The notes under the pieces are model-generated. The model was not told the DNA's origin. It saw nothing but the letters and a program-made list of their open reading frames with translations, and did no database searches. The position numbers and the translations under genes are program-made. From contig CALSPN010000024.1 in NCBI GenBank assembly GCA_943788245.1, positions 1 to 64,000 of the forward strand: DNA of 64,000 nucleotides, written 5' to 3'. Positions 5,998 to 41,056 of the stretch are shown here, piece after piece (position 1 is the first letter of the stretch; each line of letters starts with the position of its first letter). The DNA comes from an uncultured Verrucomicrobiae bacterium (GTDB taxonomy: Bacteria; Verrucomicrobiota; Verrucomicrobiia; Limisphaerales; AAA164-E04).

Positions 5998-6728
5998 TCA
6001 TTCTGTTTTAATATGATCCAATATTTTGAGTTCAATATCCTTGAAATGTACGATCATATCAGGGTCATGCAGTTGAAACTGAATCATGCCTGACTTGAGT
6101 CTGCGGCTTTCCGGAAGGTGTTCCTCAAATTGTGCAGCAGGTTTCCCATTGATGGAGAATTGAAATTGGTTTCCGCGAACGATCACATGAACAGTATTCC
6201 AATCGTTTTTCTTGATGTCCCTCCACCTGAACGGCACCTTTGAGAGATGAAATAGCAGGGGAATCATCTTCCCTGATGATCAGCTTATCACCTCGAAAGC
6301 ATCGGTGCTCGATGCGTCCAGGTGTATGGAAATCCCAAGCTCCAAGCACCTTGCCACCGATCCCTGCATGGCCAAGGTCCACATGATATGCTTGATAATC
6401 GCGTTTGCCAGTGGGGTCTTTTACTGCTCGGATGTTGACTCCACTGTTTCCCTCACCCGGAAACCGATACGAAAACTTCAGTTCGAAATCGGCAATATCA
6501 CGGTTGCCGTCATAGATGAGATAACAGCGCCCCTTTTTACCTTCACCAACGATATAATCATCACGAACATACCATGCCTCCGAGGCCTGTGGGAAACTTG
6601 GAGGACCAACCCTCCAGTGTTTTGCCGTTGAAGATTCGCAAAAACTCGCCTTCTGAAGCGTTCGCGTTTGTTTGATCAACGTTGAAGTAGAATAACGTCC
6701 ATACGAGGATCATCCAGTGGAGTTTCAT
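5998..6728 (-). pseudogene. DUF1080 / 3-keto-disaccharide hydrolase-like secreted protein, two frameshifts
   Basis: Concanavalin-like DUF1080 proteins are annotated as 3-keto-disaccharide hydrolases. ATG 6728 begins a secretion signal ('MKLHWMILVWTLFYF'), followed by the family hallmark 'LRIFNGKTLEGW'. Two single-base insertions then break the frame: the first near 6600, in 'tttccc', before 'YIVGEGKKGRCYLIYDGN'; the second at about 6240-6265, before 'WNTVHVIVRGNQFQFSING'. The later segments 'GEGNSGVNIRAV', 'YQAYHVDLG' and 'GKPAAQF' are all family-typical. The TGA stop is at 5998-6000. It lies 60 bp downstream of the SGNH/PVC dehydrogenase gene on the same strand and is probably the last gene of that operon. 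A second, intact DUF1080 gene lies at 31.4 kb. Confidence 0.82.
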
Positions 6729-9700: not shown

Positions 9701-10720
9701 ATTCGCTTGAGGATCCCCATGCAAGATTTCCTTTGGAGGACGATTTGGCCCCGGATCGGTGCCATGTATTGCGATGTGCTGGATGCGCTCTTCAGCTTCT
9801 GCGATCATCCGTGGCAAGGTCAGCCATTCTTCACGCAATGAAATAGGACCTTTAGTAAACTGTCGCCTGGCGTCATCACCAAACAATAATTTCCAGTTGG
9901 TCGGGCGCCAGTAGTTGAGCCAAAGTCGATGCTTTTCAATGACCGCATTTCTCAGGGGATGGAGCGCATCATGTGAATGGGAGTCGATGCCAAGCTGATC
10001 GGCGATCTGTCTTGCAATGATCGGGTGCGCTTCGGGGCTGATGTGTCGTCCATTGGATGTTGCATTGCTGGTTGCCTGATGAAAAAGGTCTACCAGGAAC
10101 ACACGATGTTTTTTGGCCAGCTGACGGATGACATTTACATACTGACTCAAGATTTCGTTTTGCTGCGCAAGGTTTGGCAGATGAGGGTTGTCAGAGCTCT
10201 CGAATGGGGTGGGAGTCAGCAGGGCAACCCTGCGGCCATCCTTCAACCACGATTGAATGAGTGTTGAGTAAGCTTCTGAAAATGCCGCCAGTGCTTCAAG
10301 ACCCTCTAATGATTCCGATTGGCCAAATTGGGAAATAATCATGCTGGCCCCAATCCGCTTCAACTGATTGTTCAAATCCCCCAGTCCTCCGTCCTGATCG
10401 AAATGCGCTCGTTTGCGCCATCGTTCGATCACCGTTCCCTGTCGGAATACCGTATCCGCTTCCCATGCCAGATCTCGGAACTGGGGGGATGATTGCACAA
10501 AATGTTCGCTCAGGATGGATTCCAGATAACCTGCCTTCTGTAGATAAACCATATTGGCACCACCTAGAAAGGCGACTACTTCATTTCGCTCCAATCGAAA
10601 GGGTCTTTGGGCATGAACCTGAGCGCTGCCGAACAATAAGCAGGTCAGCCAGACGAGACAGATAGACTTGAAAGTTTTTTTGTTCATCGCGCTGCCATTG
10701 ATGCCATTTGCATCACTCAT
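6789..10720 (-). pseudogene. SGNH-like + PVC-type dehydrogenase + HEAT + cytochrome c protein, about six frameshifts
   Basis: Reconstructed exported protein of ~1,300 residues. Order: signal peptide (from ATG 10687, or ATG 10720 with 11 extra residues), an SGNH/GDSL-like domain ('NEVVAFLGGANMVYLQKAG', '...DLFHQATSNATSNGRHISP'), a PVC-type dehydrogenase propeller ('FTLPEGFSINLFASEQ', 'NPWGIDFDPWGQSF', 'EGPDGAVYVVDWYNP'), HEAT repeats, and a heme site 'CNACHQVSGMGGLVGPEL'. The C-terminus '...MPQGLTDDLSEKELAHLVHY' ends at TGA 6789-6791. Frame changes fall near 9340, 8890, 8320, 7640, 7110 and 6985. The first four are +1; the last two are +2 or -1. Motifs survive on both sides of every break. The family is thought to oxidise sugars or alcohols in the periplasm and pass electrons to the attached heme. 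The substrate is unknown. Confidence 0.82.
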
Positions 10721-10734
10721 CGATTCAGAGGGAC

Positions 10735-12069
10735 TTATTTATTCGTGATACAGTAAACGGAGGAGGCGGTTCGAATAAAGAGTTTACCTTGTGCCATGGA
10801 GGGAGTGGCAATGCACAACTCATCCAAGTCGTTTGTTTCAATTATTTCAAATTCGGGGCCAGCTTTTAGAACGAATGTTTTCCCACTTTCAGCAAGGCCA
10901 AAGAGTTTACCATTATAGGCCCAGGGAGATGCCGTAAAACTTGTGTAAAGCGGAAATCGTGTGCGGTCGTAAATTTCTTCCCCGGTAAGGGCGTGGTGAC
11001 AGGTCATCATGCCCTGATCAAGGAGCGTATAATAATACTCTCCATAAACGATTGGGGTTGTGTTGTAGGGGCCCAGTTTTGGATGATGCCACTCAATAAA
11101 AGCACCTTTCCTTTGATTTTCATCAATACTGATGTCGCCACTGGCCCCGCTTTGGATAACCCAGACCGGTCGGCGTCGATCCTGAAAATATCCGGATGTC
11201 ACATAAAGTAATCCATTCGCTGCAAAGGGTGAAGGGATGGTCAGAACAGACATCCGGCCGTCCATCGACCAGAGGACGTTTCCATTCAAATCATAGGAGC
11301 GAATACGCTTTCTGCCTGCAGTGACTACCTCAGTGCGCAACTCATTTTTCCAGATAAAAGGAGTAGCCCAGGTGGTCTTTTCCTCTCTGGGTGTGCGCCA
11401 GCGCTGCTTGCCGGTTTTGCTGTCCAAGGCGGTGATGAAAGAGGATTTGGCATTGTCATATTGAATGATTACCTGATTCTCATGTACCACAGGCGACGCA
11501 GCCGCCCCATAGTCTCGCATGGTTTCTTCCGGATGAATCAGAGATTCCCAGAGTGGTGTTCCGTTGTGATCGAAACAGTACAGTCCAAGATCTCCAAACA
11601 GTGCATAAAGACGTTCGCCATCAACACAGGGGGTTTCCGATGCATAGGTGTTTTTCGGGTGACGTCCCACAGGTGGAGTGCCCTTGTGTACCTCACGCTT
11701 CCAAAGTGTTTGACCTGTGTTGATATCCAGGCAGTAAACCAGCCAGCGATGCATGCCGCCCGGTATTTCCTTTCGACCTTCGCCGTTATAAAGACCGGGC
11801 TTGGGTTTTTCAAACTGTCCATCACTGGCGACGGTTGTAAGGAATACTTTGTCACCCCAAATGACCGGGCTGGACCAGCCCAGGCCGGGAATGTCCGATT
11901 TCCAGAGAATGTTTTCCGTCTTACTCCACTTCGTGGGCAGTCGGGGATCGTTATCAACAACTCCGTCTGCATTGGGTCCGCGAAATCTTGACCAGTTTTC
12001 TTGAGCATATAAATCTGAGCATAATACTAAGATGAATATCAGGGAAAGATGGGTGCCTCTTGCTTTCAT
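10735..12069 (-). CDS. PQQ-binding-like beta-propeller repeat protein (secreted)
   Basis: Intact 444-residue protein with a cleavable signal (residues 1-22, ending '...CSDLYAQ'). The opening 'ENWSRFRGPNADGVV' and 'LPTKWSKTENILWKSDIPG' are the standard start of the PVC group of PQQ-like propellers related to BamB. Repeats with 'G.....YCLDINTGQTLWKREV' and 'ALDSKTGKQRWRTPRE' follow. Such proteins may bind PQQ or act as non-catalytic scaffolds; no catalytic residues can be assigned. It starts 88 bp after a sulfatase and ends 14 bp before the first possible start of the SGNH/PVC dehydrogenase, so the three genes probably form one operon. A redox-partner or scaffold role is inferred from that context. 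Confidence 0.9.
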   Translation of the reverse strand: MKARGTHLSLIFILVLCSDLYAQENWSRFRGPNADGVVDNDPRLPTKWSKTENILWKSDIPGLGWSSPVIWGDKVFLTTVASDGQFEKPKPGLYNGEGRKEIPGGMHRWLVYCLDINTGQTLWKREVHKGTPPVGRHPKNTYASETPCVDGERLYALFGDLGLYCFDHNGTPLWESLIHPEETMRDYGAAASPVVHENQVIIQYDNAKSSFITALDSKTGKQRWRTPREEKTTWATPFIWKNELRTEVVTAGRKRIRSYDLNGNVLWSMDGRMSVLTIPSPFAANGLLYVTSGYFQDRRRPVWVIQSGASGDISIDENQRKGAFIEWHHPKLGPYNTTPIVYGEYYYTLLDQGMMTCHHALTGEEIYDRTRFPLYTSFTASPWAYNGKLFGLAESGKTFVLKAGPEFEIIETNDLDELCIATPSMAQGKLFIRTASSVYCITNK

Positions 12070-22984: not shown

Positions 22985-25900
22985 CTACTCGCGTACCAGT
23001 GGTTCCATTTCAAACCGAATGAACTGGCGGGCGAAGGGCGAGGCGTCAAGCGTTGCACGGTAAACGATTAAACCCATCCCGGCTCCAAGATTGGTTCTTC
23101 CCGCATATTCAACGTCCTCAGTCCACGCTTTCAAGTCGTGTGAAATCAAAGGTATCGTTAAAAAGTCATCAGCTCCAAGTCGATGCTCAAAGGCAATGGT
23201 TAAATAATTGCCGTCTGACTGGAGGGATTCTAACTTAATATCAAATGCAGAGGATGGATCAGGGATATCAGGATCGCTGCCCAAAACATATTCGAGCAAC
23301 TCCGTTCGGCCGTCTTTGTCTCGATCGCCATCCAAGCCTACTAATGCATGCTCTGCCATCCAGCTCAGTAGACGGATAGCGTCGTCTCCACCCGGATTGC
23401 CTCCGGAATCAGCACTGGTTCGCCAACTCTCAGGGGATGTTGGGTCGCTTATCCAAGGCGTCATCAATACCAATGAATAACTGTCTCCATCCGCGTCCTC
23501 AGGCCAGGGAGCTTCGTCGCTCCATTCGAAGGAGGCAATCTCACGTTGGCTTGCATCGGACAAAGTCAAGCGTTCTCCGGAGTTTGAAAGTCTGTTACTC
23601 TCAGCGGAATGGAAATTGCCGATCTTCTGGAGAGTGCTCCCATATCGTGTTTCAAATGCCTTGGAGTTCCCGGCGACGACGATTCGTTGTCCTGGCTCGA
23701 GCGCTAACGATGGCAGCGCAAAGCGAATCCCAGAGGTGAAGGCTGTGCCTGTCAAGTCCACGTGCGTTCGATCGCTGATATTAGTCAGTTCGACAAACTC
23801 GAATGACTCCCCGTCAAAGATGCCTTCTGCACGCTCCCGTTCCGAGGGATCAGCAGGGTGATACATGACTTCGGTAATAGCCAGGTTTTCCATGCTGGCA
23901 AGCGCGGACAATCCGGTTCCAATGATACGCACCGAGTCGGTTCCCAGAGACTTACCTGCGCGATCGAAAGCTGAGAGTGAAATGATGTTCTCGCCCGGGT
24001 CGATGGGAACCTGCACTCGCCAGGTTGTTTCGTTGACCCAATCCATTGGTAATAAAGCGCCACTCGCCGAGCGGATTTCATGCAGGTCAACCCATCCACG
24101 GCCTTGTATGGATGCGACCTTTTCGGGCGAACTGACGTTGTCAGCCGTCGTGATCCTGTAGTTCGTCGGCGCAATGATGCGATTGACCTCATTCACGGCG
24201 GTGCTGCGACGAGTATTGATATAGGAAAGAAACCGAGTGAGATCTTCACTGGGGAGGAAACAGGAGTAGTGTTCGGCCCACTCCGTCATGTAATCCACGT
24301 TGAAAGTACTTTCCACAATATCCCAGACGTGTCCGTAGAACGCTCGCTTATTTTTCGGGCTGGCTGAAATCAATCGATTCAGATCCGTGTTTGGCGTGAG
24401 GCTCGAACTTGCATTTCGATTGAAGGTAAAATCCATATCCCAGGGAAAAAGTAACGCTTTTCCGTCTGAAGGCCTGATGTAGATGATTGCATTGTGGCGG
24501 GCTCCACTCGAGTAATTATCACCGATACCAAACAAGGATTGAATGGCAAATGATCGCAACCATTGGTCAACGTCCAGTAGTCGATCCATCTCCTCCTGAT
24601 AGGTTCGACCCGATTGCCCCATCGCCGTCAGTACGTCAATCAAGGGTCCGTAATCGTCCGCATCGCGGTTGTTCTCCACCAGCCAGTGCCAGCGATAAAG
24701 CTCCTTGTTGCTACCGCCCAGATTGCGCACAGGCACTCCGTGTGTTCCTCCGTCCTGCGTCAGCTTCAACCCTTCAAAACCGCCCGTTGTTTCTCGAAGT
24801 GTGTAGATTAATTCGTATTCGAACATCGCACCATCGCTACCGTTGATGAACTGGTTGTCCAGATACTCCGCGTCGTATCGAGACTTCAGCAGCATGGCTG
24901 AGCCGGTATGCTGCGATCGAGGGGCAATCACTCGTATCAGATCATCATACATGCCGGGAATGTTTCCGGCGTGATTGATCGCGTGCTTGACCATGATTTC
25001 CTTTTGACTGAACTGGTCACCTGCACCCGATCGATCAACGGCCACCGTCCGATGTGCCCCCAGAAAGGGTTGATCTGCGGGAAAGCGTAAAAGGAAACCC
25101 GCCCGAACATTCTTTGCGCGGCCATGCTCACTTCCCTTGAGCCGCACGCCGCAGTTGTAATAGACTTCACGTTCGTCGACAATAATTGTACATCCGAGAC
25201 GATCGTTACTCATGACGTTGGTGCGGCGGTGGAGCTTTCCGGTGTCGGCGTCGGTCATGACAATCCGGAGATTCATTGGTTGACAGGCGCCGAGGTCAAG
25301 ATCGGCTTGACCATCATTGTATGGCACGATGGCTCTGGACGTGCTTCCTCCCTCAGGGTGAGTCGTTGTCATGCCGAGATGATCCGTCGCTTCGACGTAG
25401 AATTGTATCTTTGCGCCAAATGCTTGCGACGGTATTTTTCCTGACCATTCCCCTGCGTCAGATAAGCGCATTGATGTCATCTGAAACGGGTCTCCATTGA
25501 CCGCATGGAATAATTGAACGGATGCTACGCCGTCGGGGTCACCTGTCTTGACAAAAACATGGACGGATTCACCTTCGACGGGAATGGCTGGTTCATGGCG
25601 AAGATCACTGAAAGTTGGCCCGGCATTCGATACACGGGCGGAATTGAGCCGGCCTGGTGTGCCCCCATCTTGTGGTGCATCCAAAATAGTCGTTCGGGCG
25701 AGTCGGTTGAAATAGAGTCGTGTATTGAGTTGGTTTGAACCACCCAGCCATTTGGCTCTAAAACTGATTTTATAATCCCTGTTGGATGAGATGGAAACAA
25801 ATGAACGGCCTGACTTCAGTGTTGTCTCCGCGTGATTGCTCATATGCTCTGTGGCACCGGACGCTCGGACCCACAAAACACGATTATTCGGATCCTGCGG

Positions 25901-28900
25901 ATCATCGATCACTTCATAGTTACTGTGGTTTCCCAGCATTCGCCATCGCGTTGCATCTCCACTGTTGAAATGCCCGTTCTGAATCAGTTCCGTATTCGCA
26001 CCCTCTGGATCCTGACGTACGCTGATATCGTCTATCAGGAACTCACCTGCATCCAATAGTCCGAAAATGAATTCGTGATAGATGGTGGGATCGTTGGGGC
26101 TCTGCGTTGCTCGGCCCTGGTAGGTATAAGTACGCCAGGGTCCTTCGACTTTACCCGGATGCCAGGCCCCGGGGAGGTGGTTTTCAGATCGAGGATCCGC
26201 CAATTCAAGACTGGAGCCTCCTCCATCTGCCATCGCTGGCCAGGGTGCATCGTCGAGATAGTACAGTTCATCCGCCGGATTGCCGTAGGCGTCGCTCAGT
26301 CGCAGTCGCTCTCCACGGCGAGAGAGCGATCCGCTCCACTGACCAATCACAGGGATGGCAGGATAGGCTTCAGCAAACGCATGCGCATCTCCAGCCACGA
26401 TGGAATATTCGTTCGGAGCCAGAACCGTTCCCGATGGGAATTCAAATCGCACCCCGTCGTCAAAAACCCATTTGCTCATGTCCACTGAGACATCCCCTTG
26501 ATTCCATACCTCGATCCATTGATTGTCTGACCGGCGGAATGGCAGGCCTGGAATCGCTGGAACAATTTCCTCGACTGCGTTGAGCGTCAACCCAAAGACC
26601 ACATCGCTGCTGTTCAAAGATGTTTGATGTACCTCTACTGATATTTGATTTGATCCGACATGCAGCAGCTCCGCTGGGATGGAAACAGCTGATGAGAGAG
26701 TGGCTTCCCCTCCACGCATCGCCAGCGTGTCATGATCGACTTTACCATCGGACATGCCATATCGAAAAACCTCTGTCCCATTCAGATAAAAAACCGCTCC
26801 GTCGTCGATTAAATGAATCATCTCGATCTCCGTAAGAACCGCCAGCTGTTCCTGAGTCACATCAAACTCGGTTTGAAAATAGTGGGTGACAACGAATGGA
26901 TCATTCAGTGATGGGCGAGTGAGCAAGGTGTCCACGGGATATGGCAACGATCCCGTCTCCCAGGCGATCAATCCTCTCCCTTTTTTCCAGTCGCCGCTCA
27001 AGGAATGCCTGCGGGATGCCCAATCAGAGCCTGGGTCACGGCCAGATTCGTTGACCAGCCAGTCTGCCCCCCATCCCACAAGTGGTGTGATATCTACCGT
27101 TTCCGGGACGCCCGGGGTTGCTACCAGTGGCCGAGGATGGTACATGATTTCATTGATCACAATATTCGAATGAAACTCGAAAATATTTGCACTTCCGAAT
27201 GTTGCCTCAGAGGGGTAGAGCCATCGTCCGTCATGCTGGGAGGATCGTCCTCGAAGTCGGTCTGTGACTTTGACGGAATCCAGTAACAAGCCGCGAACAG
27301 TATCCACTAGAAAAAGCCGGTCACCGAGCGTCGGACGAAAATTCAGCTCTTGTTCGGAAAGAGAATGCCAGGCATCTGAAGACAGACTCGAAATGTTCGA
27401 GAGTTCCTTGATGCTTCCACTCGATGAACGAATCTCCAGGCCCTTGAATTCACCCGTTATGCTGGATCGATTGACCATCTCTGCTTGGAAAGAGGGGTCA
27501 GATGCAGCGCTGATTTCGTTGAAAGCGATGCTCACTGCTTCGCTGGTGTTCACCGGTGCTGTGATTGTGTTCAGCGAAAGGCCGAATATCAGATTTTCAA
27601 GGTTTGCTTCCGACATATGGATTTCGGCGGAGAGGATGTTTTCACCAACACGCAGTGCACCTTCAGTAAGAAAATACGTCTGACTGAATGCGGGCTGGAG
27701 CACCACTTCGTTTGCCCTCGTTGCGTGATTGATTTCCTCCGTCGGTAAATTGGCACGATGGATTTCAATTCCATTCAGATAGAGTACAACACCGTCTGCA
27801 GCCAAGACACGGAATGAAGCCGTCGTTCGATCCGGGGCTCCGGTGAATGTGAATCGTTTTCGGAAGTAGGCGGTGGAACTGTCGCCGGTCAGTTTTGTGC
27901 CGAGGCCTCCTACGCCTCCCGTGGTCGTCGGTGCGGTATTGGGTTTGAGCGTCTCATCTGCCAGGCCCTGGATCGATTCCGAGGGCAGGGCTGTTTTCCA
28001 GATTGCCACATCGTCCAGTCGTCCTTTCCATGATTCTCGGTCCTGATCTCCACCAAAATACAAGGGCTGAGGATGGTTCAAGCCGCTGGAAATAACTTGC
28101 ACTCCCATGGAAATGCCGTTTCGAAAATAAGTCAATCGAGGTCCTTGTTTCGTCACCGCATGGTGCGCCCAGACATTCACAGGGAAATCGGGGTAGTCAA
28201 TATCTTCACTGGATGAGGAGCGATGAAATTCGAATGCGGCGCTCGTGAATTTGATGAACTCTCTGGGGGAAAAATCCGCTCCATCTGGATTGTATCGGTT
28301 GCCGATGATCACATTGACGTTTCCCGGTTTCATGGAATAGGCCCAGAATGACCAGGTGAAATCATTTTCCAGGGTAATCTGTGGAACACTGATTCCGGTG
28401 GTTACGTAATCATTGATGCCGTCAAATTCCAGCACAGGTCCACGCTCTGAGTCCGTGACCCAACTGGGTCCGTTGCGCAAGCGACCGTCGATATCACCCG
28501 CCAGATTTCGGGCCCGGATTCCGCTGCTTGCGTCGAGGGGCCAATACGCGGATGGGCCTCCACCCACAGAACCTGTCCATTCTTTTCCTGCATGAAAGGC
28601 ACCAGCTCCTTCTGTCCAATCCTGATCATCAAAATCGGACTCCCGCCAGCGAGTTGGTGGCGGATCCGATTCCGTGAGGAATCTCCATCTGGAGTCCAGC
28701 GAAACCAGATTGAACTCTGAGGGAGAAGATTCGAGTGTTCGAACATTTGGCTGTCCGGGTGTGCCGCCCAGTTCCAGACTCGCCCGCCAGTTCCGTGGAC
28801 CTCCTTCAGCTGTGTTCTCTTTTCTTTTTGCCAGAGTTGCGCCGGAACCGTCCGCTCCGACCGGCCAGTCGCCGTCGTCCTGATAATCGATGCGATCCAT

Positions 28901-29317
28901 GATGCGTCCACTGTTGTTTTCCAGGCGAATCGAGTCGCCACCATTATCCAGACGGCCGGTAAAAGCTGTTGGGTGGACATCTTTTCCTTTCAGGTCTGGA
29001 TGCAGGGGGACAGCGGCCACCAGGAGCAATCCGCGGCCCTCAATGCCAGTTCCTTCTTCAAATAGGAGCTCAATTCCTCCTGCCAATTTCCAGCCGGACA
29101 GATCGACCTTTACGCCCATGAGATTCCGTAATTCAATCCACTCGACTCCTTCAGCAGCAGGATGATATTGCACTTCGTTAAAGACGACGACCGAATCCGC
29201 CGAAGCCATCGCACGATGCATCGATACTGCAAAACAGAGACAGGTGATACTCATCCTCATCCATGCCAGCAGGCTGGACTTCAGAGGGGCGATGCGTTTT
29301 CCCGTTTTGGTTTTCAT
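22985..29317 (-). CDS. Giant secreted LTD / LamG / CotH-kinase protein (~2,110 aa)
   Basis: An intact reading frame of 6.3 kb. ATG 29317 is preferred over ATG 29380 because it starts the signal ('MKTKTGKRIAPLKSSLLAW') and has a GGCGAGAT-like site just upstream. Approximate domains counted from 29380 are: lamin-tail (LTD) 65-190 ('VVFNEVQYHPAAEGVEWIEL'), LamG/concanavalin 275-480 ('AYWPLDASSGIRARNLAGDI'), a second LTD ~735-1010, CotH kinase-like ~1330-1720 ('CGVRLKGSEHGRAKN', 'ALLFPWDMDFTFNRN'), and a third LTD ~1830-1960. A calcium-loop-like 'GDRDKDGRTELLEYVLGSDP' lies near the end. CotH proteins are atypical kinases that can phosphorylate secreted protein partners. This architecture is widespread in Verrucomicrobiota. 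A cell-surface or matrix role is likely, and the substrate is unknown. Confidence 0.9.
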   Translation of the reverse strand: MKTKTGKRIAPLKSSLLAWMRMSITCLCFAVSMHRAMASADSVVVFNEVQYHPAAEGVEWIELRNLMGVKVDLSGWKLAGGIELLFEEGTGIEGRGLLLVAAVPLHPDLKGKDVHPTAFTGRLDNGGDSIRLENNSGRIMDRIDYQDDGDWPVGADGSGATLAKRKENTAEGGPRNWRASLELGGTPGQPNVRTLESSPSEFNLVSLDSRWRFLTESDPPPTRWRESDFDDQDWTEGAGAFHAGKEWTGSVGGGPSAYWPLDASSGIRARNLAGDIDGRLRNGPSWVTDSERGPVLEFDGINDYVTTGISVPQITLENDFTWSFWAYSMKPGNVNVIIGNRYNPDGADFSPREFIKFTSAAFEFHRSSSSEDIDYPDFPVNVWAHHAVTKQGPRLTYFRNGISMGVQVISSGLNHPQPLYFGGDQDRESWKGRLDDVAIWKTALPSESIQGLADETLKPNTAPTTTGGVGGLGTKLTGDSSTAYFRKRFTFTGAPDRTTASFRVLAADGVVLYLNGIEIHRANLPTEEINHATRANEVVLQPAFSQTYFLTEGALRVGENILSAEIHMSEANLENLIFGLSLNTITAPVNTSEAVSIAFNEISAASDPSFQAEMVNRSSITGEFKGLEIRSSSGSIKELSNISSLSSDAWHSLSEQELNFRPTLGDRLFLVDTVRGLLLDSVKVTDRLRGRSSQHDGRWLYPSEATFGSANIFEFHSNIVINEIMYHPRPLVATPGVPETVDITPLVGWGADWLVNESGRDPGSDWASRRHSLSGDWKKGRGLIAWETGSLPYPVDTLLTRPSLNDPFVVTHYFQTEFDVTQEQLAVLTEIEMIHLIDDGAVFYLNGTEVFRYGMSDGKVDHDTLAMRGGEATLSSAVSIPAELLHVGSNQISVEVHQTSLNSSDVVFGLTLNAVEEIVPAIPGLPFRRSDNQWIEVWNQGDVSVDMSKWVFDDGVRFEFPSGTVLAPNEYSIVAGDAHAFAEAYPAIPVIGQWSGSLSRRGERLRLSDAYGNPADELYYLDDAPWPAMADGGGSSLELADPRSENHLPGAWHPGKVEGPWRTYTYQGRATQSPNDPTIYHEFIFGLLDAGEFLIDDISVRQDPEGANTELIQNGHFNSGDATRWRMLGNHSNYEVIDDPQDPNNRVLWVRASGATEHMSNHAETTLKSGRSFVSISSNRDYKISFRAKWLGGSNQLNTRLYFNRLARTTILDAPQDGGTPGRLNSARVSNAGPTFSDLRHEPAIPVEGESVHVFVKTGDPDGVASVQLFHAVNGDPFQMTSMRLSDAGEWSGKIPSQAFGAKIQFYVEATDHLGMTTTHPEGGSTSRAIVPYNDGQADLDLGACQPMNLRIVMTDADTGKLHRRTNVMSNDRLGCTIIVDEREVYYNCGVRLKGSEHGRAKNVRAGFLLRFPADQPFLGAHRTVAVDRSGAGDQFSQKEIMVKHAINHAGNIPGMYDDLIRVIAPRSQHTGSAMLLKSRYDAEYLDNQFINGSDGAMFEYELIYTLRETTGGFEGLKLTQDGGTHGVPVRNLGGSNKELYRWHWLVENNRDADDYGPLIDVLTAMGQSGRTYQEEMDRLLDVDQWLRSFAIQSLFGIGDNYSSGARHNAIIYIRPSDGKALLFPWDMDFTFNRNASSSLTPNTDLNRLISASPKNKRAFYGHVWDIVESTFNVDYMTEWAEHYSCFLPSEDLTRFLSYINTRRSTAVNEVNRIIAPTNYRITTADNVSSPEKVASIQGRGWVDLHEIRSASGALLPMDWVNETTWRVQVPIDPGENIISLSAFDRAGKSLGTDSVRIIGTGLSALASMENLAITEVMYHPADPSERERAEGIFDGESFEFVELTNISDRTHVDLTGTAFTSGIRFALPSLALEPGQRIVVAGNSKAFETRYGSTLQKIGNFHSAESNRLSNSGERLTLSDASQREIASFEWSDEAPWPEDADGDSYSLVLMTPWISDPTSPESWRTSADSGGNPGGDDAIRLLSWMAEHALVGLDGDRDKDGRTELLEYVLGSDPDIPDPSSAFDIKLESLQSDGNYLTIAFEHRLGADDFLTIPLISHDLKAWTEDVEYAGRTNLGAGMGLIVYRATLDASPFARQFIRFEMEPLVRE

Positions 29318-29380
29318 ATGATCTCGCCGTTTACCTGCGTCCTGAGTATTGACGCTACCATGTGTGAATATGGGTTCCAT

Positions 29381-31373: not shown

Positions 31374-31411
31374 AAAAAAAACGCCGGGACAGATAAGTTT
31401 CTGTCCCGGCG
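31374..31411 (-). terminator. Rho-independent terminator of the intact DUF1080 gene
   Basis: A perfect 11-bp stem, CGCCGGGACAG / CTGTCCCGGCG (31382-31392 and 31401-31411), with an 8-base loop. On the minus strand it is followed at once by eight T residues (complement of 31374-31381). It lies 21 bp after the stop of the DUF1080 gene ending at 31433. Confidence 0.93.
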
Positions 31412-31432: not shown

Positions 31433-32098
31433 TTAAAGTGTCTTGATACGCAGATTACGCCAGCGAACTTCGAAAGGGCCGCGATTACCCACTCCGTGGA
31501 CCTGAAGACCGATGATGCCTTCTGGATGCGTCCTGTAGATTTCCTCGTCGACTAACCTGGTGATCTTTTGGCCGTTGATCCAGGTCTCTATCACGGGGCC
31601 TTTGGCGACGATTCGGTAGTGGTTCCATTCGCCGTCCTTGTAGTGTTTGTGCGGCTTGAGATCTATCTTGGGTGTGCGCCATCCTCCGGCGGCCTCTCCA
31701 TAGATGTAGCCAGATTCGGCGCCTTTTGGGCCACTGTGTTCGATTTCCACCTGCGGGCCGTTTACGCGCCCGCCAAACTCCGTTCCCCTCAGCTTTGAAC
31801 GGATCTGGCAGCCAGAGTTCAAATCGGCGTCGCAGTTCACTTCGAACTCGAGTTCGAAATCGCCGTAGAGATTCTTCGTGCAAAGAAAGGTATTCGGACT
31901 GCCTTTTTCGGTCTTGCCGACGATCATGCCATCTTCGACACGGTAATCCGCTTTGCCGCTCTTGATTTCCCAGCCTGCGAGATCCTTGCCATTGAACAAA
32001 GATAACCAGCCGATTTTTTTTGCGTCTTGAGCATTTCCAACAACAATGCACCCAAGTGCCACTCCGGCGATTAGAAGCTGCCTTAAGCTTTTTTTCAT
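31433..32098 (-). CDS. DUF1080 / 3-keto-disaccharide hydrolase-like secreted protein
   Basis: Intact 221-residue protein: signal peptide (residues 1-23, 'MKKSLRQLLIAGVALGC...NAQ'), then the DUF1080 jelly-roll with 'WLSLFNGKDLAGWEIKSG', 'YGDFELEFEVNCDADLNSG', 'GPQVEIEHSGPKGAESGYIY' and 'GEWNHYRIVAKGPVIETWIN'. The family is annotated as hydrolysing 3-keto-glycosides produced by sugar 3-dehydrogenases. That fits the Gfo/Idh/MocA genes 1-5 kb away. It is preceded by a SnoaL-like gene (32 bp gap) on the same strand and ends in a strong terminator. It is probably periplasmic. Unlike the copy at 6 kb, its frame is clean. Confidence 0.9.
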   Translation of the reverse strand: MKKSLRQLLIAGVALGCIVVGNAQDAKKIGWLSLFNGKDLAGWEIKSGKADYRVEDGMIVGKTEKGSPNTFLCTKNLYGDFELEFEVNCDADLNSGCQIRSKLRGTEFGGRVNGPQVEIEHSGPKGAESGYIYGEAAGGWRTPKIDLKPHKHYKDGEWNHYRIVAKGPVIETWINGQKITRLVDEEIYRTHPEGIIGLQVHGVGNRGPFEVRWRNLRIKTL

Positions 32099-32130
32099 AA
32101 TTTTAGCTATGGAAGAAATATGGTATTGAG

Positions 32131-32496
32131 TTACTCCGGCATTGCTGAGGAATGGTGTTCTATAATGAGCCAGCGTTGACCGGTCCAGCGATACACATAT
32201 GTAAACCTCGCCTGCACGGAGTTGCCGTCCTTGAAAGTAAAAGTGTAGACACCTGAATTGATTGCAATATCACCAAAGGTACGTACGTTCGACTCATCTA
32301 TTTTTCCCTGCGGACCTTTAGCCAGGAAATGGACAAAATAGTCCTCAATTTCCTCATGGTTGTGTCGTACTTTATTGGAGACTGTTGGCAAAAGAATGGC
32401 GTTGGTCTCATAAAGTGCGGATACATTTTTCGGGTTCCCTGTTTGCAGGGCACTATTCCATTCGTCAAAAAGTTTGGTAATGATATTTTCGCTCAT
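32131..32496 (-). CDS. SgcJ/EcaC-type SnoaL-like (CaMKII-association-like, DUF4440) protein
   Basis: 121-residue NTF2-fold protein. 'LFDEWNSALQTGNPKNVSAL' and 'YETNAILLPTVSNKVRHNHE' at the start and 'ARFTYVYRWTGQRWLIIEHH' with the closing 'SSAMPE' match the SgcJ/EcaC family, related to the CaMKII association domain. There is no signal peptide. It lies directly upstream of the intact DUF1080 gene with a 32-bp gap, so the two are likely co-transcribed. No enzymatic activity is established for this family. Confidence 0.82.
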   Translation of the reverse strand: MSENIITKLFDEWNSALQTGNPKNVSALYETNAILLPTVSNKVRHNHEEIEDYFVHFLAKGPQGKIDESNVRTFGDIAINSGVYTFTFKDGNSVQARFTYVYRWTGQRWLIIEHHSSAMPE

Positions 32497-32912
32497 CTTA
32501 TCTTAATGGTTTTTAAGTTTTTTCAATTATGTTTGGTTTGTCAAAAAACAGTCGGAATCAAAAAATTCAAATCGACTCAATTAGAGTACAACTTACTCAT
32601 TTGCTGATTTTTTTCAATGGTATATTTCAAGAAGGTTTTCTGGATGTTATTTGTCATGAGAGGCTAAGCTCTCTCATGATTCCTTCGGTTTTTCTCATCG
32701 TTCCAACATCAGTGATGTGTCGTCGCACTGAAAGACCAGGCCCATTCATGGGTAACAATTATCGGCGTTATCTTTTGCCGTTCCCCTCGCTGAGATCATG
32801 ATCATGCCATTAACATGGGCAGGTCATAAGAGAGATTAATATCCCGAATGTTTACCCGCAAGCGCCGGCGAGCTTTACTGACCTTGATAAGACGCGAAGG
32901 AACATAGCAGAT
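32497..32912. other. 416-bp non-coding stretch with a perfect inverted repeat
   Basis: Lies between the minus-strand Gfo/Idh gene (end 32913) and the SnoaL-like gene (start 32496). It holds a perfect 9-bp inverted repeat, TCATGAGAG / CTCTCATGA, at 32654-32662 and 32671-32679, about 160 bp before the SnoaL-like start. On the minus strand no T run follows, so an operator or mRNA leader structure is as likely as a terminator. Confidence 0.5.
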
Positions 32913-34031
32913 TCACACTTGTTTCCATTTCCCCTCAAGGGCAGAAAGATTGGCGGCATCAGTAAATTGTTGAGCGAGTAACCCGTCTTCCAGATTGGGG
33001 TATTTCTTATCGCTCTTGCTTCCTTCAAGAATCGGCTTCAATGCAGGGAAGACATATGAACTGAATCGATTTTTAAAACCAAAAGACGGAGGTAATTCAT
33101 GGCGTGTTTCCAGTTGATTATTTGCTTTTGTCATGATGAGTTTTCCTGAATAGCGATCTGCACTCAGGGAAGCAATGGTTCCGTGCAGTTCCAGTTCGGG
33201 AGCAAGGAATTTCCGCATATGGCTGGTGTGTGATAAAACAAAAAGACCAGTTGCTCGATTTGAAAACTCACAACTAATGGAAGCATAATCAAAATTTCCT
33301 CCCCGCTTGCGCGCTACTTCATTTTCCCTGGCCGATTGACCTTTTTCGATCGCTTCTCTGAGGTTGATAGCTCCCAGGTCAGGTTTGTCAGGAGTCAATG
33401 TTTCACCATGCGCAAGGACCTTCGTGGCTTCTGCATTGATAATCCAGCGAACCACATCATAGGCATGCGATCCGACGTCTGCAATGGTGCCTGCTGAAGA
33501 AATTTTGGGATCATCCCGCCAGGTCAGTGGCATGTCATCAGGCCGCGGATTATGCCAGCGGAAAACCGTCGATCGTATTTCACCTAATTCACCAGCATTG
33601 ACGATTTCCCTGGCCAGCCTGAATACATCGACATACCGCGTCCAGAATGGAACGAAATGTCCGAGTGGAGGTGTCGATTCACGATAGGCTTCCCACATTT
33701 TCTCTGCTTCTCCTGTATGCATGCCAATTGGTTTTTCACAAAGCACATGCTTGCCTTCTTTTGCACAAGCGATGATCGCTTCGTGATGTAGCACGTCGGG
33801 TGTGGCTACAATGACCATATTGACATCCGGATGAGTGACGACCTCCCGCCAGTTGTGAGTGATGCAGGAAGCTCCGTCTTTCTTTGCCGCCGCTTCCAGT
33901 AAATCCCTCCGTCGCGCGCACAGTGCAATGATTCGAGCCTCTTTACAGGCTTTGATTTCCTCGCGATAAGGTGTTCCGATAAATCCTGTCGCCCCCAGGA
34001 CACCGACCTTAAATATGGTTTCAGGCATCAA
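32913..34031 (-). CDS. Gfo/Idh/MocA-family oxidoreductase
   Basis: Intact 372-residue cytoplasmic NAD(P)-dependent sugar dehydrogenase-like protein. The Rossmann fingerprint is 'FKVGVLGATGFIGTPYREE', and the catalytic lysine motif is present as 'GKHVLCEKPIGMHTGEAE'. A later 'AGTIADVGSHAYDVVRWIIN' carries the conserved Asp and His (D-x-G-x-H) of the active site. The family oxidises or epimerises cyclitols and sugars, including at C3 of glycosides. It is divergent from the MFS/Gfo-Idh operon (101-bp shared promoter region), which suggests one sugar-catabolic unit. The substrate is not deducible. Confidence 0.92.
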   Translation of the reverse strand: MMPETIFKVGVLGATGFIGTPYREEIKACKEARIIALCARRRDLLEAAAKKDGASCITHNWREVVTHPDVNMVIVATPDVLHHEAIIACAKEGKHVLCEKPIGMHTGEAEKMWEAYRESTPPLGHFVPFWTRYVDVFRLAREIVNAGELGEIRSTVFRWHNPRPDDMPLTWRDDPKISSAGTIADVGSHAYDVVRWIINAEATKVLAHGETLTPDKPDLGAINLREAIEKGQSARENEVARKRGGNFDYASISCEFSNRATGLFVLSHTSHMRKFLAPELELHGTIASLSADRYSGKLIMTKANNQLETRHELPPSFGFKNRFSSYVFPALKPILEGSKSDKKYPNLEDGLLAQQFTDAANLSALEGKWKQV

Positions 34032-34132
34032 GACATCATAAGAAAGTAAAGCGATTTACGCAATTCTCTTGGGCCAGAAAGTGAGTTTCCTTTTGACTGG
34101 CCACACATGATTTCTTTGATCAGACTTTTGAC

Positions 34133-35491
34133 ATGTCCAACCACATTTCCACACAAGAATTATCTGATTCTTTATCTCGCCGGGCGCAAATAGGTGTTAC
34201 ATTGGCTGCTTTTTCAGCGTGGTTTTTTGGGGGTATGCAGATTTTGTTGACTAACCTCGGCATGCGGGCCGCCTCATTGGATTTAATGGGGCGCCAAGGC
34301 ATGCTGGATTTTGGTTCCTTCACGGATCTGAATCGACGCGCTGGTGAACTTGTTGGATCCGAACTGGCGCAGCTCAACGCATGGAATGCTATGGCGTCTC
34401 AATGGTATGCCTGGTTCCAATGTGCTTTCCTGTTCGGTGCCGCGGTTGGCGGTTATCTTTTTGGGAAACTTGGAGATCGTTATGGAAGAACTAAATTACT
34501 GGGAATATCTATCCTCTGGTTTGCAGGTTTTACCGGCCTCGCCTGGTTTGCTCAAAGTCCGCACCAACTCCTTTTCCTCAGATTTCTTGCATGTCTGGGG
34601 ATTGGAGGAGCCTGGCCAAATGGTGTTGCACTTGTTTCAGAGGTGTGGCCCAACAAGTTTCGACCAGCATTGGCAAGCGCCATTGGCATGGCGGGTAATC
34701 TCGGGATCTTTGCCATGTCTTCCATGGCTGCCATCCATGCTGTTACCCCAGACTCCTGGCGTTGGGTGATGCTGGTAAATACGGTTCCAGTCCTGCTTGG
34801 GCTGGGCGTTCTTTTGTTGCTTCCCGAATCACCCGCCTGGAAGAAGCAATCATCACAGCAAACTGGAGTGCAATCCGAATCTTCTCCTTCTGTTTTCAAG
34901 GGAGAACATTTGAGATGCGTTTTCATTGGAATCGGATTAGCCACTATTCCACTTATCGGAGGATGGGGCAGCGCCAATTGGATGATGCCATGGGCAGATG
35001 AAATCGGTTCTCAGATTGGGAAAGAGGATCTCAAAGCCCACATTGGGATGGCCCGTTCCCTGACGAGCATCTTTGGAAGTTTTTTTGCAGGGATGTTGGC
35101 GGTTTGGATGGGAAGGCGACGCATGTATTTCCTCATCAGTCTTGGCGCCTTGCTCACTGCTCAATATGCGTTTTGGATGACAGTTCCCGGCGATTTTAGC
35201 TTTCTCGTCGGTGCGGCTTTTCTGGGATTGTTCAACGGGTTTTATTTCGGATGGCTCCCGTTTTTTTTACCGGAACTTTTTCCTACCAGCATTCGTTCCA
35301 CTGGAATTGGTGTCAGCTTCAATTTTGGTCGTATCTTGACCGCACTGACCATCTTTGCCACTGGAGCATTGATGACTGCTTTTGAAAGCGATTATGCTCG
35401 TATTGGCCGTATCACCAGTCTGATATTCCTATTTGGCATGGTTTTGGTATCGTTTGCACCAGACACGAGTCGACGTGATATGATGCACTAG
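34133..35491 (+). CDS. MFS transporter (sugar-porter-like)
   Basis: Intact 452-residue protein with about 12 hydrophobic segments. Major-facilitator signatures are 'GGYLFGKLGDRYGRTKLLGI' between helices 2 and 3 (G-x-x-x-D-R-x-G-R), 'LLLPESPAWKKQ' after helix 6, and 'AVWMGRRRMYFLISLGALLT' in the second half. 'FLPELFPTSIRSTGIGVSFN' resembles the P-E-x-x-P-x-x-x-R stretch of sugar porters. It heads an operon with two Gfo/Idh-like genes starting 3 bp after its stop, so it probably imports the sugar or sugar derivative they process. Specificity is unknown. Confidence 0.92.
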   Translation: MSNHISTQELSDSLSRRAQIGVTLAAFSAWFFGGMQILLTNLGMRAASLDLMGRQGMLDFGSFTDLNRRAGELVGSELAQLNAWNAMASQWYAWFQCAFLFGAAVGGYLFGKLGDRYGRTKLLGISILWFAGFTGLAWFAQSPHQLLFLRFLACLGIGGAWPNGVALVSEVWPNKFRPALASAIGMAGNLGIFAMSSMAAIHAVTPDSWRWVMLVNTVPVLLGLGVLLLLPESPAWKKQSSQQTGVQSESSPSVFKGEHLRCVFIGIGLATIPLIGGWGSANWMMPWADEIGSQIGKEDLKAHIGMARSLTSIFGSFFAGMLAVWMGRRRMYFLISLGALLTAQYAFWMTVPGDFSFLVGAAFLGLFNGFYFGWLPFFLPELFPTSIRSTGIGVSFNFGRILTALTIFATGALMTAFESDYARIGRITSLIFLFGMVLVSFAPDTSRRDMMH

Positions 35492-35494
35492 CGA

Positions 35495-36265
35495 ATGATG
35501 TTCAAAATTGAAATACAACTGGAACCGAAGCGTAAATCCCTCTATGAAGAAGCGATACGCCGCCTTCGATGCATTGATGTGTGCAACGACGCTGATACTG
35601 TCCCTGATGCAAGAATCGTTGGGCCAGAGAATGCGATTTCAAATCTGGGTGTTCCCTGCCTGGTTGATCAACCGGAAAAGATCGACATTCATATGTTAGC
35701 GTCTTTGATGAAATCAGACAGTCACATAATGCCTGCTCATGCTTTGCGATTCAGCTCCAGGGTTAAACCCATTGACGAAGCGTTGCGTGCCGGTAAGTTG
35801 GGGAAACCAGGGTTGATGCGGCTTCACTACTGGACAACAGAAGATGTCTCGTTGAGGCAAGCCATGTTTGGGCCAATAGATCTGGCTCGCTGGTTTTTCC
35901 AAGATGAACCCAGCATGCGCCAATGGGTTGAGGCGAAGCATTCGCTCCTCTGCCATCTTCAATTCCCCAGCGACGGAATGGCTCTCATGAATGTTTCAAA
36001 TCCTTTTGAAGGGGAAGTCGCTTACGAAAGTGTCCAATTGATTGGGTCAACCGGTGCTGCCTATGGAGATGATCATCACAATACCCATCTGCATTTCCGG
36101 AAAAACAGCGTTTCCGCACGTATACAACATAATAACATCATGCATGGATTGATGGGGCTTGTTAGTGAGTTTGTAGATGGAATTTTAAACGCCAGGGAAT
36201 GGAATGTTTCTTTGAAAGATACATTACGGATTCATGAGCTGCTGGAGGAGCTTGTTGATGGCTGA
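35495..36265 (+). CDS. Degenerate Gfo/Idh/MocA-like protein lacking Rossmann and catalytic-lysine motifs
   Basis: 256-residue protein. Residues ~78-130 ('AHALRFSSRVKPIDEALRAG', 'KLGKPGLMRLHYWTTED') and the C-terminal sheet match the Gfo/Idh/MocA substrate domain. The first ~65 residues have no G-x-G-x-x-G dinucleotide site, and where E-K-P is expected it reads 'GVPCLVDQPEKI', with Gln in place of the catalytic Lys. The length is ~100 residues short of the family norm. It is probably not an active dehydrogenase and may be a partner subunit or regulator of the next gene. It starts 3 bp after the MFS stop and overlaps the following Gfo/Idh start by 8 bp. No frameshift that would restore a nucleotide-binding domain was noticed upstream. 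Confidence 0.72.
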   Translation: MMFKIEIQLEPKRKSLYEEAIRRLRCIDVCNDADTVPDARIVGPENAISNLGVPCLVDQPEKIDIHMLASLMKSDSHIMPAHALRFSSRVKPIDEALRAGKLGKPGLMRLHYWTTEDVSLRQAMFGPIDLARWFFQDEPSMRQWVEAKHSLLCHLQFPSDGMALMNVSNPFEGEVAYESVQLIGSTGAAYGDDHHNTHLHFRKNSVSARIQHNNIMHGLMGLVSEFVDGILNAREWNVSLKDTLRIHELLEELVDG

Positions 36266-37367
36266 TCCAGGAAAAAAAACATATCGAGTATTGGTCTTGA
36301 GTGTGATCAAGCACGCTTATCTGCCTGACGCAGTCGCTGCACACCCCAGGTTTGCATTGGTGGCGGTAGCGGATGATGCCCTCAGGCCCGAATGGACGCA
36401 TGAACGTAATCAGAATTACGCCGATCTGCATGGGATTCCTTATTGCAGGGACGTAGAGCAGGGTCTCAAAAATTTTGATTGTGACATCGCCGTCATCAGT
36501 TCTGAAGCTGAACGGCATTGTGACTTGGCCATGCGCGCCGTCAAGGCAGGCCTACACATCATTGTCGATAAACCTCTTTCACCCGATGTGCAAGAGTGCG
36601 AATCCCTATCCGAACTTATGAAGCAAAGCGGAATGAAGGGATTGGTATGGAATCGGAACTTCCTTCCCGCATTGATTGAAGCTCGATTGGCCCTGCGCGA
36701 AGGGGCGATCGGAGATTTGGTAGCGGTTCATTGTGATTTTTATTTTTCAAAAGACGCAGGACCTCCCAAAGAGACTGAAACGATGGGCAGCCCTCCCATC
36801 GATTGGCTAGATCGCCAATTGGAAGCTCATGCCGATGGTTCCGACGGTGGTGTCGGCACTCAGCCCATGGGTGAACTTCAGATTGAAGGCATATACCCCC
36901 TGGCTTATATTTACTCCTTATGTTCATCGCCCTTCGAGCGTGTTACTGCCAGCACGGCGACCCATTTTCATCAGGCCAATGTTGATAACCAAGTTGATGA
37001 TCTGGCTGCCCTGTCTTTTGTTTTGGAAAATGGAGTAATCGGTTCTCTCGCCATTGGTCGTATCGGGGCTGCCAGTCATCCTGATATTGGAGAAATCAAG
37101 CTGCACCTGATCGGGACAAAGGGAGCCTTGGTGGTAAGTGAGGCCCGACCTGAGGTTGGTCTATACTACAAAGACCAGCCAAAAAATGAATTCAAAAATA
37201 TAAGGATTGATAATGATAATGATTTTCTTCTCATGGATGCCTTTGCCGATGCCCTTGATTGTGGCACTGAATTGCCTCTTGATATTGAGACTGCCTGCAA
37301 TATTGCACGAATAATTGATGCTGCTCAAATATCAGCAAACGAAGGAAGGGAAGTTAAAATATCCTGA
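36258..37367 (+). CDS. Gfo/Idh/MocA-family oxidoreductase
   Basis: 369 residues from ATG 36258, chosen because GGAGGA lies 8 bp upstream and the 8-bp overlap with the previous stop suggests coupling; the in-frame start at 36234 is less likely. The catalytic lysine motif is 'GLHIIVDKPLSPDVQECES'. The N-terminal strand 'YRVLVLSVIKHAYLPDAVAA' departs from the classic G-x-G-x-x-G. 'GGVGTQPMGELQIEGIYPLA' fills the active-site region. It is the third gene of the MFS operon. Together with its degenerate neighbour it may form a hetero-oligomeric dehydrogenase; that pairing is an inference. Confidence 0.87.
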   Translation: MADPGKKTYRVLVLSVIKHAYLPDAVAAHPRFALVAVADDALRPEWTHERNQNYADLHGIPYCRDVEQGLKNFDCDIAVISSEAERHCDLAMRAVKAGLHIIVDKPLSPDVQECESLSELMKQSGMKGLVWNRNFLPALIEARLALREGAIGDLVAVHCDFYFSKDAGPPKETETMGSPPIDWLDRQLEAHADGSDGGVGTQPMGELQIEGIYPLAYIYSLCSSPFERVTASTATHFHQANVDNQVDDLAALSFVLENGVIGSLAIGRIGAASHPDIGEIKLHLIGTKGALVVSEARPEVGLYYKDQPKNEFKNIRIDNDNDFLLMDAFADALDCGTELPLDIETACNIARIIDAAQISANEGREVKIS

Positions 37368-40004: not shown

Positions 40005-41056
40005 TTATTGCGGCACTACGGTTTTTTCAGTCTTTAAAAATCTCATTAGTTGATCCTCAGTGACTGTTCGCGTGGCTCCGTGACCTTCCTGATTCACTTT
40101 ATAATGAACCACGTCCCCATTCAGGTAGCTGAAGATTTCAAGACCACCAGTCTTGCTGCTTGGATGCGTCTTTTTTTCTCCCATGTAACCCATTTCCCTG
40201 GCCCAGAGGTATATTGATTCCTCGGCAGCAACGAACTTCAATTTACCGTCATTGGCTGGAATAAATTTTGAAGGGCCACCATGGTAGGGGACTAGCTTGT
40301 CCTCGGTGCCTGAAATATTCATCAAACGTTTGCCTTTCATGGGTGTGGCCACTGCGTGGTATTGATTTTGATCACCCTTGGCTTTGAAATGTTTACCATC
40401 ATACTGCCATGCATTCAGCTGGCTGACCCCTGTGATGTAGTTTCGAATGTGAGGTAAACTGGTTTCGATTGCTATCTGGTTGACCAGAGCAGCTCCGTTC
40501 GAATTTCCCATGATGCTGAAGTCGTCAGGAGCCACGTTCTTAAATGTAGCCAGCCTCTGCACTATGGATTCGATAAACCCCAGGTCATCCGCCTTTGAAC
40601 GTTCAGAAACTATATTCCAACTCTCCCGGTAGCCCTGGGCGAACACCAGGATATAATGCATGACCATTTTTTCATGACGTCGCATGAACCCTGCATTGCA
40701 GACATTGCGTTTCCACCATTACCATGCAGGAAAATGAACACAGGAAATCTCTTGTGTTTGTCTGGGGATTCCAAAGTTCGGGACTCGGGGACATTTACAT
40801 GGTATGGGCGTCGATATTTTTTTTCCTGCGACCACGATTGGGTGACAAAATACTTGCCGGAGGTCAACATCTTCTGATGATTTTCAATGAAAGCTGATCT
40901 CTCCTCTGGCGTCGGTTCTGCAACTGTGCTTCGCAAATTTTCAGACAGGCGGGATGGTTGTCGCTCTGCAGCGAGTGATTCATTGCTGTTCTGTGCATTT
41001 GCCAATGCCAGAAGTGAAAACCATGTGATAAAGGGAATATATCTCAATCGATTCAT
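40005..41056 (-). CDS. Secreted alpha/beta-hydrolase esterase (PHB-depolymerase/LpqC-like), one frameshift
   Basis: Reconstructed ~350-residue protein with a signal at residues 1-21 ('MNRLRYIPFITWFSLLALAN'). 'RFPVFIFLHGNGGNAMSAMQ' is the oxyanion-hole region (H-G-N-G-G). The frame then changes near 40685; unlike most breaks in the window this one is equivalent to a missing base, and inserting a T gives 'MQGFMRRHEKMVMHYILVF'. After it come the nucleophile elbow 'FSIMGNSNGAALVNQ' (G-N-S-N-G), the acid region 'NISGTEDKLVPYHGG' and the His 'VNQEGHGATRTVTEDQ'. Probable ester hydrolase on a polymer or glycan. 172 bp follow the upstream carboxylesterase gene. Confidence 0.82.

Follow-up and report, generated by a model that had tools for sequence, protein, structure and literature searches.

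The window analysed here is a stretch of 64,000 nucleotides from contig CALSPN010000024.1 (C24) of an uncultured Verrucomicrobiae bacterium (GCA_943788245.1), whose draft genome, of marine type, comprises 3.64 Mb in 57 contigs and is about 79% complete. Our subject is a 6-kb block between 31.4 and 37.4 kb (Table 1) that encodes a DUF1080 protein, a complete dehydrogenase of the Gfo/Idh/MocA family (GfoA), a transporter of the major facilitator superfamily (MFS), a reduced Gfo/Idh-fold protein (GfoT) and a further Gfo/Idh enzyme (GfoB). An earlier note on this DNA had read the block as an oxidoreductive route in which Gfo/Idh enzymes make a 3-keto sugar that the DUF1080 protein then cleaves. 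The five genes that it named were found where it had put them; a gene for a small SnoaL/DUF4440-like protein also lies within the block and was absent from its list. GfoA is encoded on the minus strand and MFS–GfoT–GfoB on the plus strand, all being transcribed away from a common 101-bp gap, and the ATG of GfoB overlaps the end of GfoT by 8 bp.

GfoT and its partner GfoB

GfoT, which had been taken for a degenerate third Gfo copy, proved to be an intact and conserved gene under purifying selection that is kept beside GfoB. It has no Pfam or NCBIfam match of its own, and its relatives share 89% identity within the genus, about 50% within the family and about 35% within the order. In a sample of 80 public loci, collected with GfoB as query and labelled Verrucomicrobiota, Planctomycetota, Latescibacteria, Poribacteria, Spirochaetes and, in one case, as a Litorilinea metagenome-assembled genome (MAG), at least 65 have GfoT as the next gene on the 5′ side of GfoB, the exceptions being mainly contig ends or gene-calling problems; the start and stop of the pair mostly overlap or lie a few bases apart. 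In an order-level profile of 196 genomes, which were searched for GfoT, GfoB, GfoA and the aldolase and haem protein described below, GfoT and GfoB share exactly the same 17 genomes. The ratio of nonsynonymous to synonymous substitution (dN/dS) of GfoT is 0.18 when the window is compared with G172, a genome of the same genus that is 96% identical to it over the 20 kb compared. The AF2 model of the window protein has a pLDDT (per-residue confidence) of 89.7 and a pTM (predicted template-modelling score) of 0.87, and pTM is 0.84–0.87 across the models of this protein and of a longer homologue (L034), for both of which the best Foldseek matches are inositol-dehydrogenase-like Gfo/Idh proteins (TMq about 0.75–0.85). 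Joint distribution, adjacency to GfoB, fold prediction and dN/dS together rule out that GfoT is a pseudogene.

What GfoT lacks is the active site. Aligned by profile to 4hkt and 3ezy, its nearest relatives by fold and profile, GfoT lacks the EKP segment and has not retained the catalytic His, and a [DE]KP motif is found in only 1 of 82 GfoT sequences. Instead, 78 of the 82 contain Y[AG]DD[HRQ], the core of a near-invariant Y(A/G)DD(H/R/Q)xN motif that is peculiar to GfoT. In the window's genus the N-terminal domain of GfoT is also incomplete. The loop following the motif is predicted with low confidence in the L034 model, as could be expected of a segment that becomes ordered on contact with a partner or a ligand. 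GfoB, in turn, has kept its Lys (D102-K103-P104 is invariant in A2), and differs from the family in its first loop, which is S-V-(V/I)-K-H in place of GxGxxG (the canonical loop occurs in 1 of 95), and in the presence of GELxxEGxYPL at the site that in many members of the family carries an Asp/His motif. The long GfoB frames of L075, L076 and L130 are not natural GfoT–GfoB fusions; they result from upstream read-through.

From these sequence comparisons GfoT–GfoB is probably a two-part enzyme that has so far gone unrecognised, and not debris. A limited literature search yielded no account of the gene set and none, for bacteria, of a conserved Gfo/Idh partner that is not catalytic, which is weak evidence of absence. 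More tentatively, and at rather less than even odds, it can be proposed that the two proteins form an obligate two-subunit Gfo/Idh enzyme, in which the dead or repurposed subunit would lend GfoB, for its active site or its oligomer, the Y(A/G)DD(H/R/Q)xN loop, and that this enzyme serves a sugar catabolic pathway which has not been described and is widespread among marine Planctomycetota and Verrucomicrobiota.

A protein that has lost its catalytic residues and kept its fold could also be a sensor or regulator, as is yeast Gal80p, a non-catalytic regulator with the Gfo/Idh fold, and the conserved loop of GfoT could then bind a ligand. However, the fold search shows no DNA-binding domain, conserved partner regulator genes are not found nearby, and the tight translational coupling of GfoT and GfoB suggests stoichiometric co-assembly; that GfoT is a regulator and not an enzyme subunit seems to us improbable. 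Somewhat less improbable, but still doubtful, is that GfoB (with GfoT) is no net dehydrogenase and, as do GH109 and the oxidoreductive sulfoquinovosidase SqgA, acts by transient oxidation, as a glycosidase, lyase or epimerase of the Gfo/Idh type. The altered active-site motif and unusual first loop of GfoB would fit, and the Foldseek matches of GfoT include the NAD-dependent glycoside hydrolases 8qc2, 8qc3, 8qc5, 8qc6 and 8qc8. These matches, however, rank under the inositol dehydrogenases and reflect the common fold, and the PDB profile matches of GfoB are ordinary oxidoreductases.

Three observations on individual copies of the pair should be mentioned. The synonymous divergence from G172 (L026) is 0.28 for GfoT and 0.42 for GfoB, and 0.08–0.15 for GfoA, the MFS transporter, the DUF1080 gene at 31 kb and a sulfatase gene at 38 kb, which suggests recombination or replacement of the GfoT–GfoB segment in one of the two species. 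In a poribacterial locus (L099:6687-10086) the order is GfoB–GfoT–GfoB, with one GfoT between two diverged GfoB copies. Locus L100, labelled Alphaproteobacteria, has almost the same gene content as L099, including the unusual downstream genes (c52–c54); it is probably a mis-binned poribacterial contig.

GfoA, the aldolase and the proposed pathway

GfoA has the domains PF01408 and PF22725/PF02894 and all the usual motifs of the family: [DE]KP in 59 of 60 sequences, DxGSHA[YF]D in 56 and the glycine loop in 55. By sequence its nearest characterised relatives are levoglucosan dehydrogenase, DgpA and inositol dehydrogenase; the top curated match, with 123 bits as compared with a cut-off of 650, is levoglucosan dehydrogenase, and the best PDB match is 6a3f. 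By eye, the Gfo proteins are without signal peptide. GfoA is found in 14 of the 17 genomes with GfoB and in 2 of the 179 others. In the Litorilinea-labelled MAG the GfoA frame (L073:10088-11293) opens with an HpaI-aldolase-like piece, GVIAPYLERPGQVTQLRGATKMR, as if an aldolase had been deleted into GfoA.

An aldolase of the HpcH/HpaI type is still more constant. All 17 GfoB genomes have it, as compared with 12 of the 179 others, which corresponds to Fisher values of about 1e-16 by genome and 1e-7 by genus, and one type of it (cluster c3) is linked to the pair in most of the order loci read and in 45 of the 80 public loci. The earlier account did not include this enzyme, which in the window's own genome sits on another contig (G000:C14:44052-44861; PF03328, 96 bits with a cut-off of 25) and is followed by a gene for an RraA-like protein; in L039 and L077 an RraA-like gene lies about 1.5 kb from the aldolase. 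Conversely, GfoT, GfoB, GfoA and the aldolase are all absent together from G020 and G123, two genomes of the same family that are 94–95% complete. The association of the four exceeds chance.

The remaining genes vary. The transporter is of the MFS, SSF (L123) or ABC (L073) type. Near some distant copies of the module there are genes for UxuA and enolase-superfamily proteins, and in genus f2 a GarR/threonate-dehydrogenase-like (tartronate-semialdehyde-reductase-like) enzyme is among the linked genes. In the same genus (L031, L032, L034) a sulfatase gene begins 3–4 bp behind the aldolase gene in a GfoT–GfoB–HpaI operon, which is the best hint that the substrate could come from a sulfated glycan.

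Taking these results together, we estimate at about 0.5 the probability that the window carries, in this block, a copy of a conserved module for the catabolism of a sugar or sugar acid, consisting of a transporter, GfoT–GfoB and GfoA, with the HpcH/HpaI-type aldolase. Import, oxidation by GfoA, a step by GfoB/GfoT and aldol cleavage make up the simplest scheme for a set that holds a transporter, an intact dehydrogenase, a coupled active–inactive pair and a constant aldolase. Gene content, conservation, joint presence and absence, motif loss and predicted fold are what the analysis shows; all reactions of the scheme, the contact between GfoT and GfoB, the substrate and the direction are inferred. 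The transporter (here MFS) would import a small sugar or sugar acid, which in some lineages may have been freed in the periplasm by the haem protein and a dedicated DUF1080 protein (an optional front end; see below) or by sulfatases. GfoA would catalyse a first NAD(P)-dependent oxidation in the cytoplasm. GfoB, in a hetero-oligomer with its Gfo/Idh-fold subunit GfoT, would carry out the second step, either a redox reaction or an elimination. The aldolase would split a 2-keto-4-hydroxy acid into pyruvate and an aldehyde, and in some lineages the tartronate-semialdehyde-reductase-like enzyme may reduce the aldehyde.

It should be noted, however, that several points weigh against this scheme. The genomes of the profile are related and the Fisher values therefore overstate independence, the genus-level value being the safer figure. 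In the window's own genus the aldolase gene is not linked to the module. A dehydratase is no constant member of the gene set, which leaves a gap between the product of the Gfo enzymes and the substrate of the aldolase that GfoB/GfoT itself or unlinked genes could fill. Finally, all NCBIfam equivalog scores are far below their cut-offs (for the aldolases about 100 bits or less where about 370–440 are required), so that a substrate cannot be read from them.

The DUF1080 genes, the haem protein and the rest of the window

With about 25 DUF1080 and 35 Gfo/Idh loci in the genome, their closeness has to be judged against random placement: a DUF1080 gene lies within 6 kb of a Gfo/Idh gene in 3 of 25 cases, with 2.6 expected (P = 0.49), and genome-wide this closeness is evidence of no more than chance. 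One could go further and see in the whole block a chance grouping of genes common in the Planctomycetes–Verrucomicrobia–Chlamydiae (PVC) bacteria with no joint function. For the DUF1080 gene at 31 kb this is valid. For GfoA, GfoT, GfoB and the aldolase it is refuted by their near-identical phyletic distribution and recurrent adjacency, and as an account of the block it is very improbable.

The DUF1080 gene at 31 kb adjoins the module only within the window's genus. Its orthologues (54–63% identity) were found in twelve genomes outside the genus for which the neighbourhoods were read; in those that bear the module they are on contigs other than the module's, and several have no module at all. 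Because these orthologues are unlinked to the module, the 31-kb gene, judged by sequence comparison, is a bystander. It also carries a signal peptide, whereas the Gfo proteins do not (both by eye), and its part in the supposed Gfo route is not supported. The SnoaL/DUF4440-like gene likewise adjoins the module only within the genus, and the five-gene set, looked for in related genomes, was seen in G172 and nowhere else.

The second DUF1080 gene, at 6 kb, is a different case. It is present as the earlier note had claimed, although split between two frames. In G194, a genome of the same family, genes for a DUF1080 protein, a haem protein with GDSL, DUF7133, HEAT and cytochrome-c parts (hemeX) and a pyrroloquinoline quinone (PQQ)-type propeller lie directly downstream of GfoB. 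The DUF1080 proteins that other lineages encode no more than about 5 kb from GfoB, collected with the G194 copy as query, form one 100/100 clade with the 6-kb type (G172 and G194 copies), and the 31-kb copy and the sampled paralogues of the own genome fall outside this clade; an independent search that started from the 31-kb copy turned up, beyond the window's genus, not one further DUF1080 subfamily at 5 kb or less from GfoB. The haem protein was matched in 88 of the 196 genomes and exceeds 800 bits in 13, all of them module-bearing; the next genome, with 786 bits, is without the module, the 800-bit cut having been set after the gap was seen.

These results allow a corrected form of the 3-keto-glycoside route, in which the periplasmic haem/DUF7133 protein would oxidise a glycoside, a DUF1080 protein of the 6-kb type would cleave the resulting 3-keto-glycoside, the transporter would import the keto sugar and the Gfo proteins would reduce or oxidise it further. 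The single DUF1080 clade near GfoB and the conservation of the haem protein, with its 13 best matches in module genomes only, speak for it, as do the likeness of GfoA to levoglucosan dehydrogenase and DgpA, which act at C3 of the sugar, and the DUF1080 proteins BT2157 and, by proposal, CCNA_01705, which act on 3-keto-glycosides (PMC9007349). However, only about 10 of 95 loci have a DUF1080 gene near the module, and genus f2 encodes the haem protein elsewhere, unlinked to the module and with no DUF1080 gene beside it. A TIM-barrel (AP_endonuc_2-like) 3-keto-sugar lyase or hydratase is not among the recurrent clusters around the module, PF01261 proteins being nearby in single cases only; the Tat-type (RRDF) AP_endonuc_2 protein reported at 54 kb of the window does exist. 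Moreover, the window's own copies are frame-broken, and the constant aldolase would be left unexplained, an enzyme that fits cleavage of a carbon skeleton better than cleavage of a glycosidic bond alone. As a general account the corrected route is rather unlikely; for lineages with the DUF1080/haem-protein pair it is possible. Of the original idea of an oxidoreductive sugar route there thus survive a conserved set of Gfo/Idh proteins and transporter, a specific DUF1080 subfamily inside it in several lineages and the sulfatase of f2; the role of the 31-kb DUF1080 protein and the reading of GfoT as a degenerate copy do not.

The 6-kb DUF1080 gene, the GDSL/DUF7133/cytochrome-c gene and an esterase gene are frame-broken in the window and intact in G172 (L164, L026). 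The breaks are likely indel errors of the draft assembly, decay being the other possibility. Elsewhere in the window a 2131-aa open frame resembles, by eye, lamin-tail/CotH-type secreted proteins. Rfam and tRNA scans gave a tRNA-Asn at 62.8 kb as sole match, and promoter and terminator scans gave a number of sites not above that in shuffled sequence.

Table 1. Positions in the window of the features discussed.
Feature	Position	Strand	Basis or remark
DUF1080, module-linked subfamily	6019..6646	-	tblastn pieces in two frames, 62-63% to G194 copy; frame broken once here, intact in G172
hemeX, secreted-type GDSL/DUF7133/HEAT/cytochrome-c	6801..10720	-	frame broken about six times here; single 1307-aa frame in G172
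PQQ-type beta-propeller	10735..12069	-	about 76% identical to G194 copy (L027); same order in G172 (L164); neighbour of hemeX in window's genus and G194
2131-aa open frame	22985..29380	-	by eye
Terminator-like hairpin after 31-kb DUF1080	31382..31411	-	12 pairs, 9 G-C, then T run; consensus scan only, sites not above shuffles
DUF1080, signal peptide by eye	31433..32098	-	Pfam profile PF06439, E 2.7e-47
SnoaL/DUF4440-like small protein	32131..32496	-	profile search; 100% identical in G172
GfoA, complete Gfo/Idh/MocA dehydrogenase	32913..34031	-	GATGxIG loop, CEKP Lys, DVGSHAYD
Divergent intergenic region GfoA/MFS, 101 bp	34032..34132		
MFS transporter	34133..35491	+	nearest NCBIfam subfamilies are the aromatic-acid/H+ and sialate/H+ symporters, with scores far below cut-off in all cases
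GfoT, reduced Gfo/Idh-fold protein	35495..36265	+	without catalytic Lys/His; conserved GfoB partner
GfoB, Gfo/Idh enzyme	36258..37367	+	DKP Lys, GELxxEGxYPL, SVVKH
Esterase	40005..41056	-	split into 226 + 148 aa in window

Comparison with known systems

The genomes of PVC bacteria contain Gfo/Idh and DUF1080 genes by the dozen, and the roles of most are guessed. Against this background the module, widely conserved yet uncharacterised, is a compact unit that lends itself to testing, and its phyletic signature in many marine MAGs is strong. Two lessons for annotation can be drawn. If GfoT is a required subunit, then automatic annotation as "partial" or "degenerate" throws away half an enzyme. 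And with two DUF1080 genes in one window, proximity alone picked the wrong partner of the Gfo cluster.

The gene set fully matches neither the Gfo deglycosylation operons nor the DUF1080 routes. In the operons for levoglucosan (lgdA-lgdB1-lgdB2-lgdC), puerarin and, in Agrobacterium, O-glycosides, Gfo enzymes are combined with TIM-barrel lyases and hydratases (PMC7676230, PMC10628242). Common to these operons and the module are Gfo/Idh-type dehydrogenases in one cluster; the 3-keto lyase and hydratase of the LgdB1/B2 type, however, are no constant members of the latter, which instead contains an aldolase of the HpaI type together with the Gfo partner that is not catalytic. In the characterised or proposed DUF1080 routes a periplasmic DUF1080 protein works with a periplasmic dehydrogenase, so that oxidation and cleavage take place in one compartment (PMC9007349). 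The LacABC-with-DUF1080 and BT2157-type routes resemble the module in pairing a signal-peptide-bearing DUF1080 protein with sugar dehydrogenases, but here the Gfo proteins are, by eye, without signal peptide, the co-located DUF1080 gene is optional and it belongs to another subfamily than the 31-kb copy. The haem protein could supply the periplasmic oxidation.

With the GarL/YfaU/HpaI pathways and their GarR-type reductases the module shares the PF03328 aldolase and, in one genus, the tartronate-semialdehyde-reductase-like enzyme; it differs in its low aldolase scores, in having no constant dehydratase and in its three Gfo/Idh-fold proteins. The IolG family, to which 3ezy and 4hkt belong, comes closest to GfoT in fold and profile, yet GfoT has neither the catalytic Lys nor the His and has a conserved loop of its own. 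Lastly, the fucose/rhamnose pathway of the Planctomycetota and Verrucomicrobiota associated with the PV-BMC microcompartment (PMC8857213) is similar in that sulfated sugars are used in the same phyla and an aldolase yields an aldehyde. Shell genes were not noticed with the present module, no search having been aimed at them, whereas the PV-BMC pathway has shell genes and an AraD-like aldolase.

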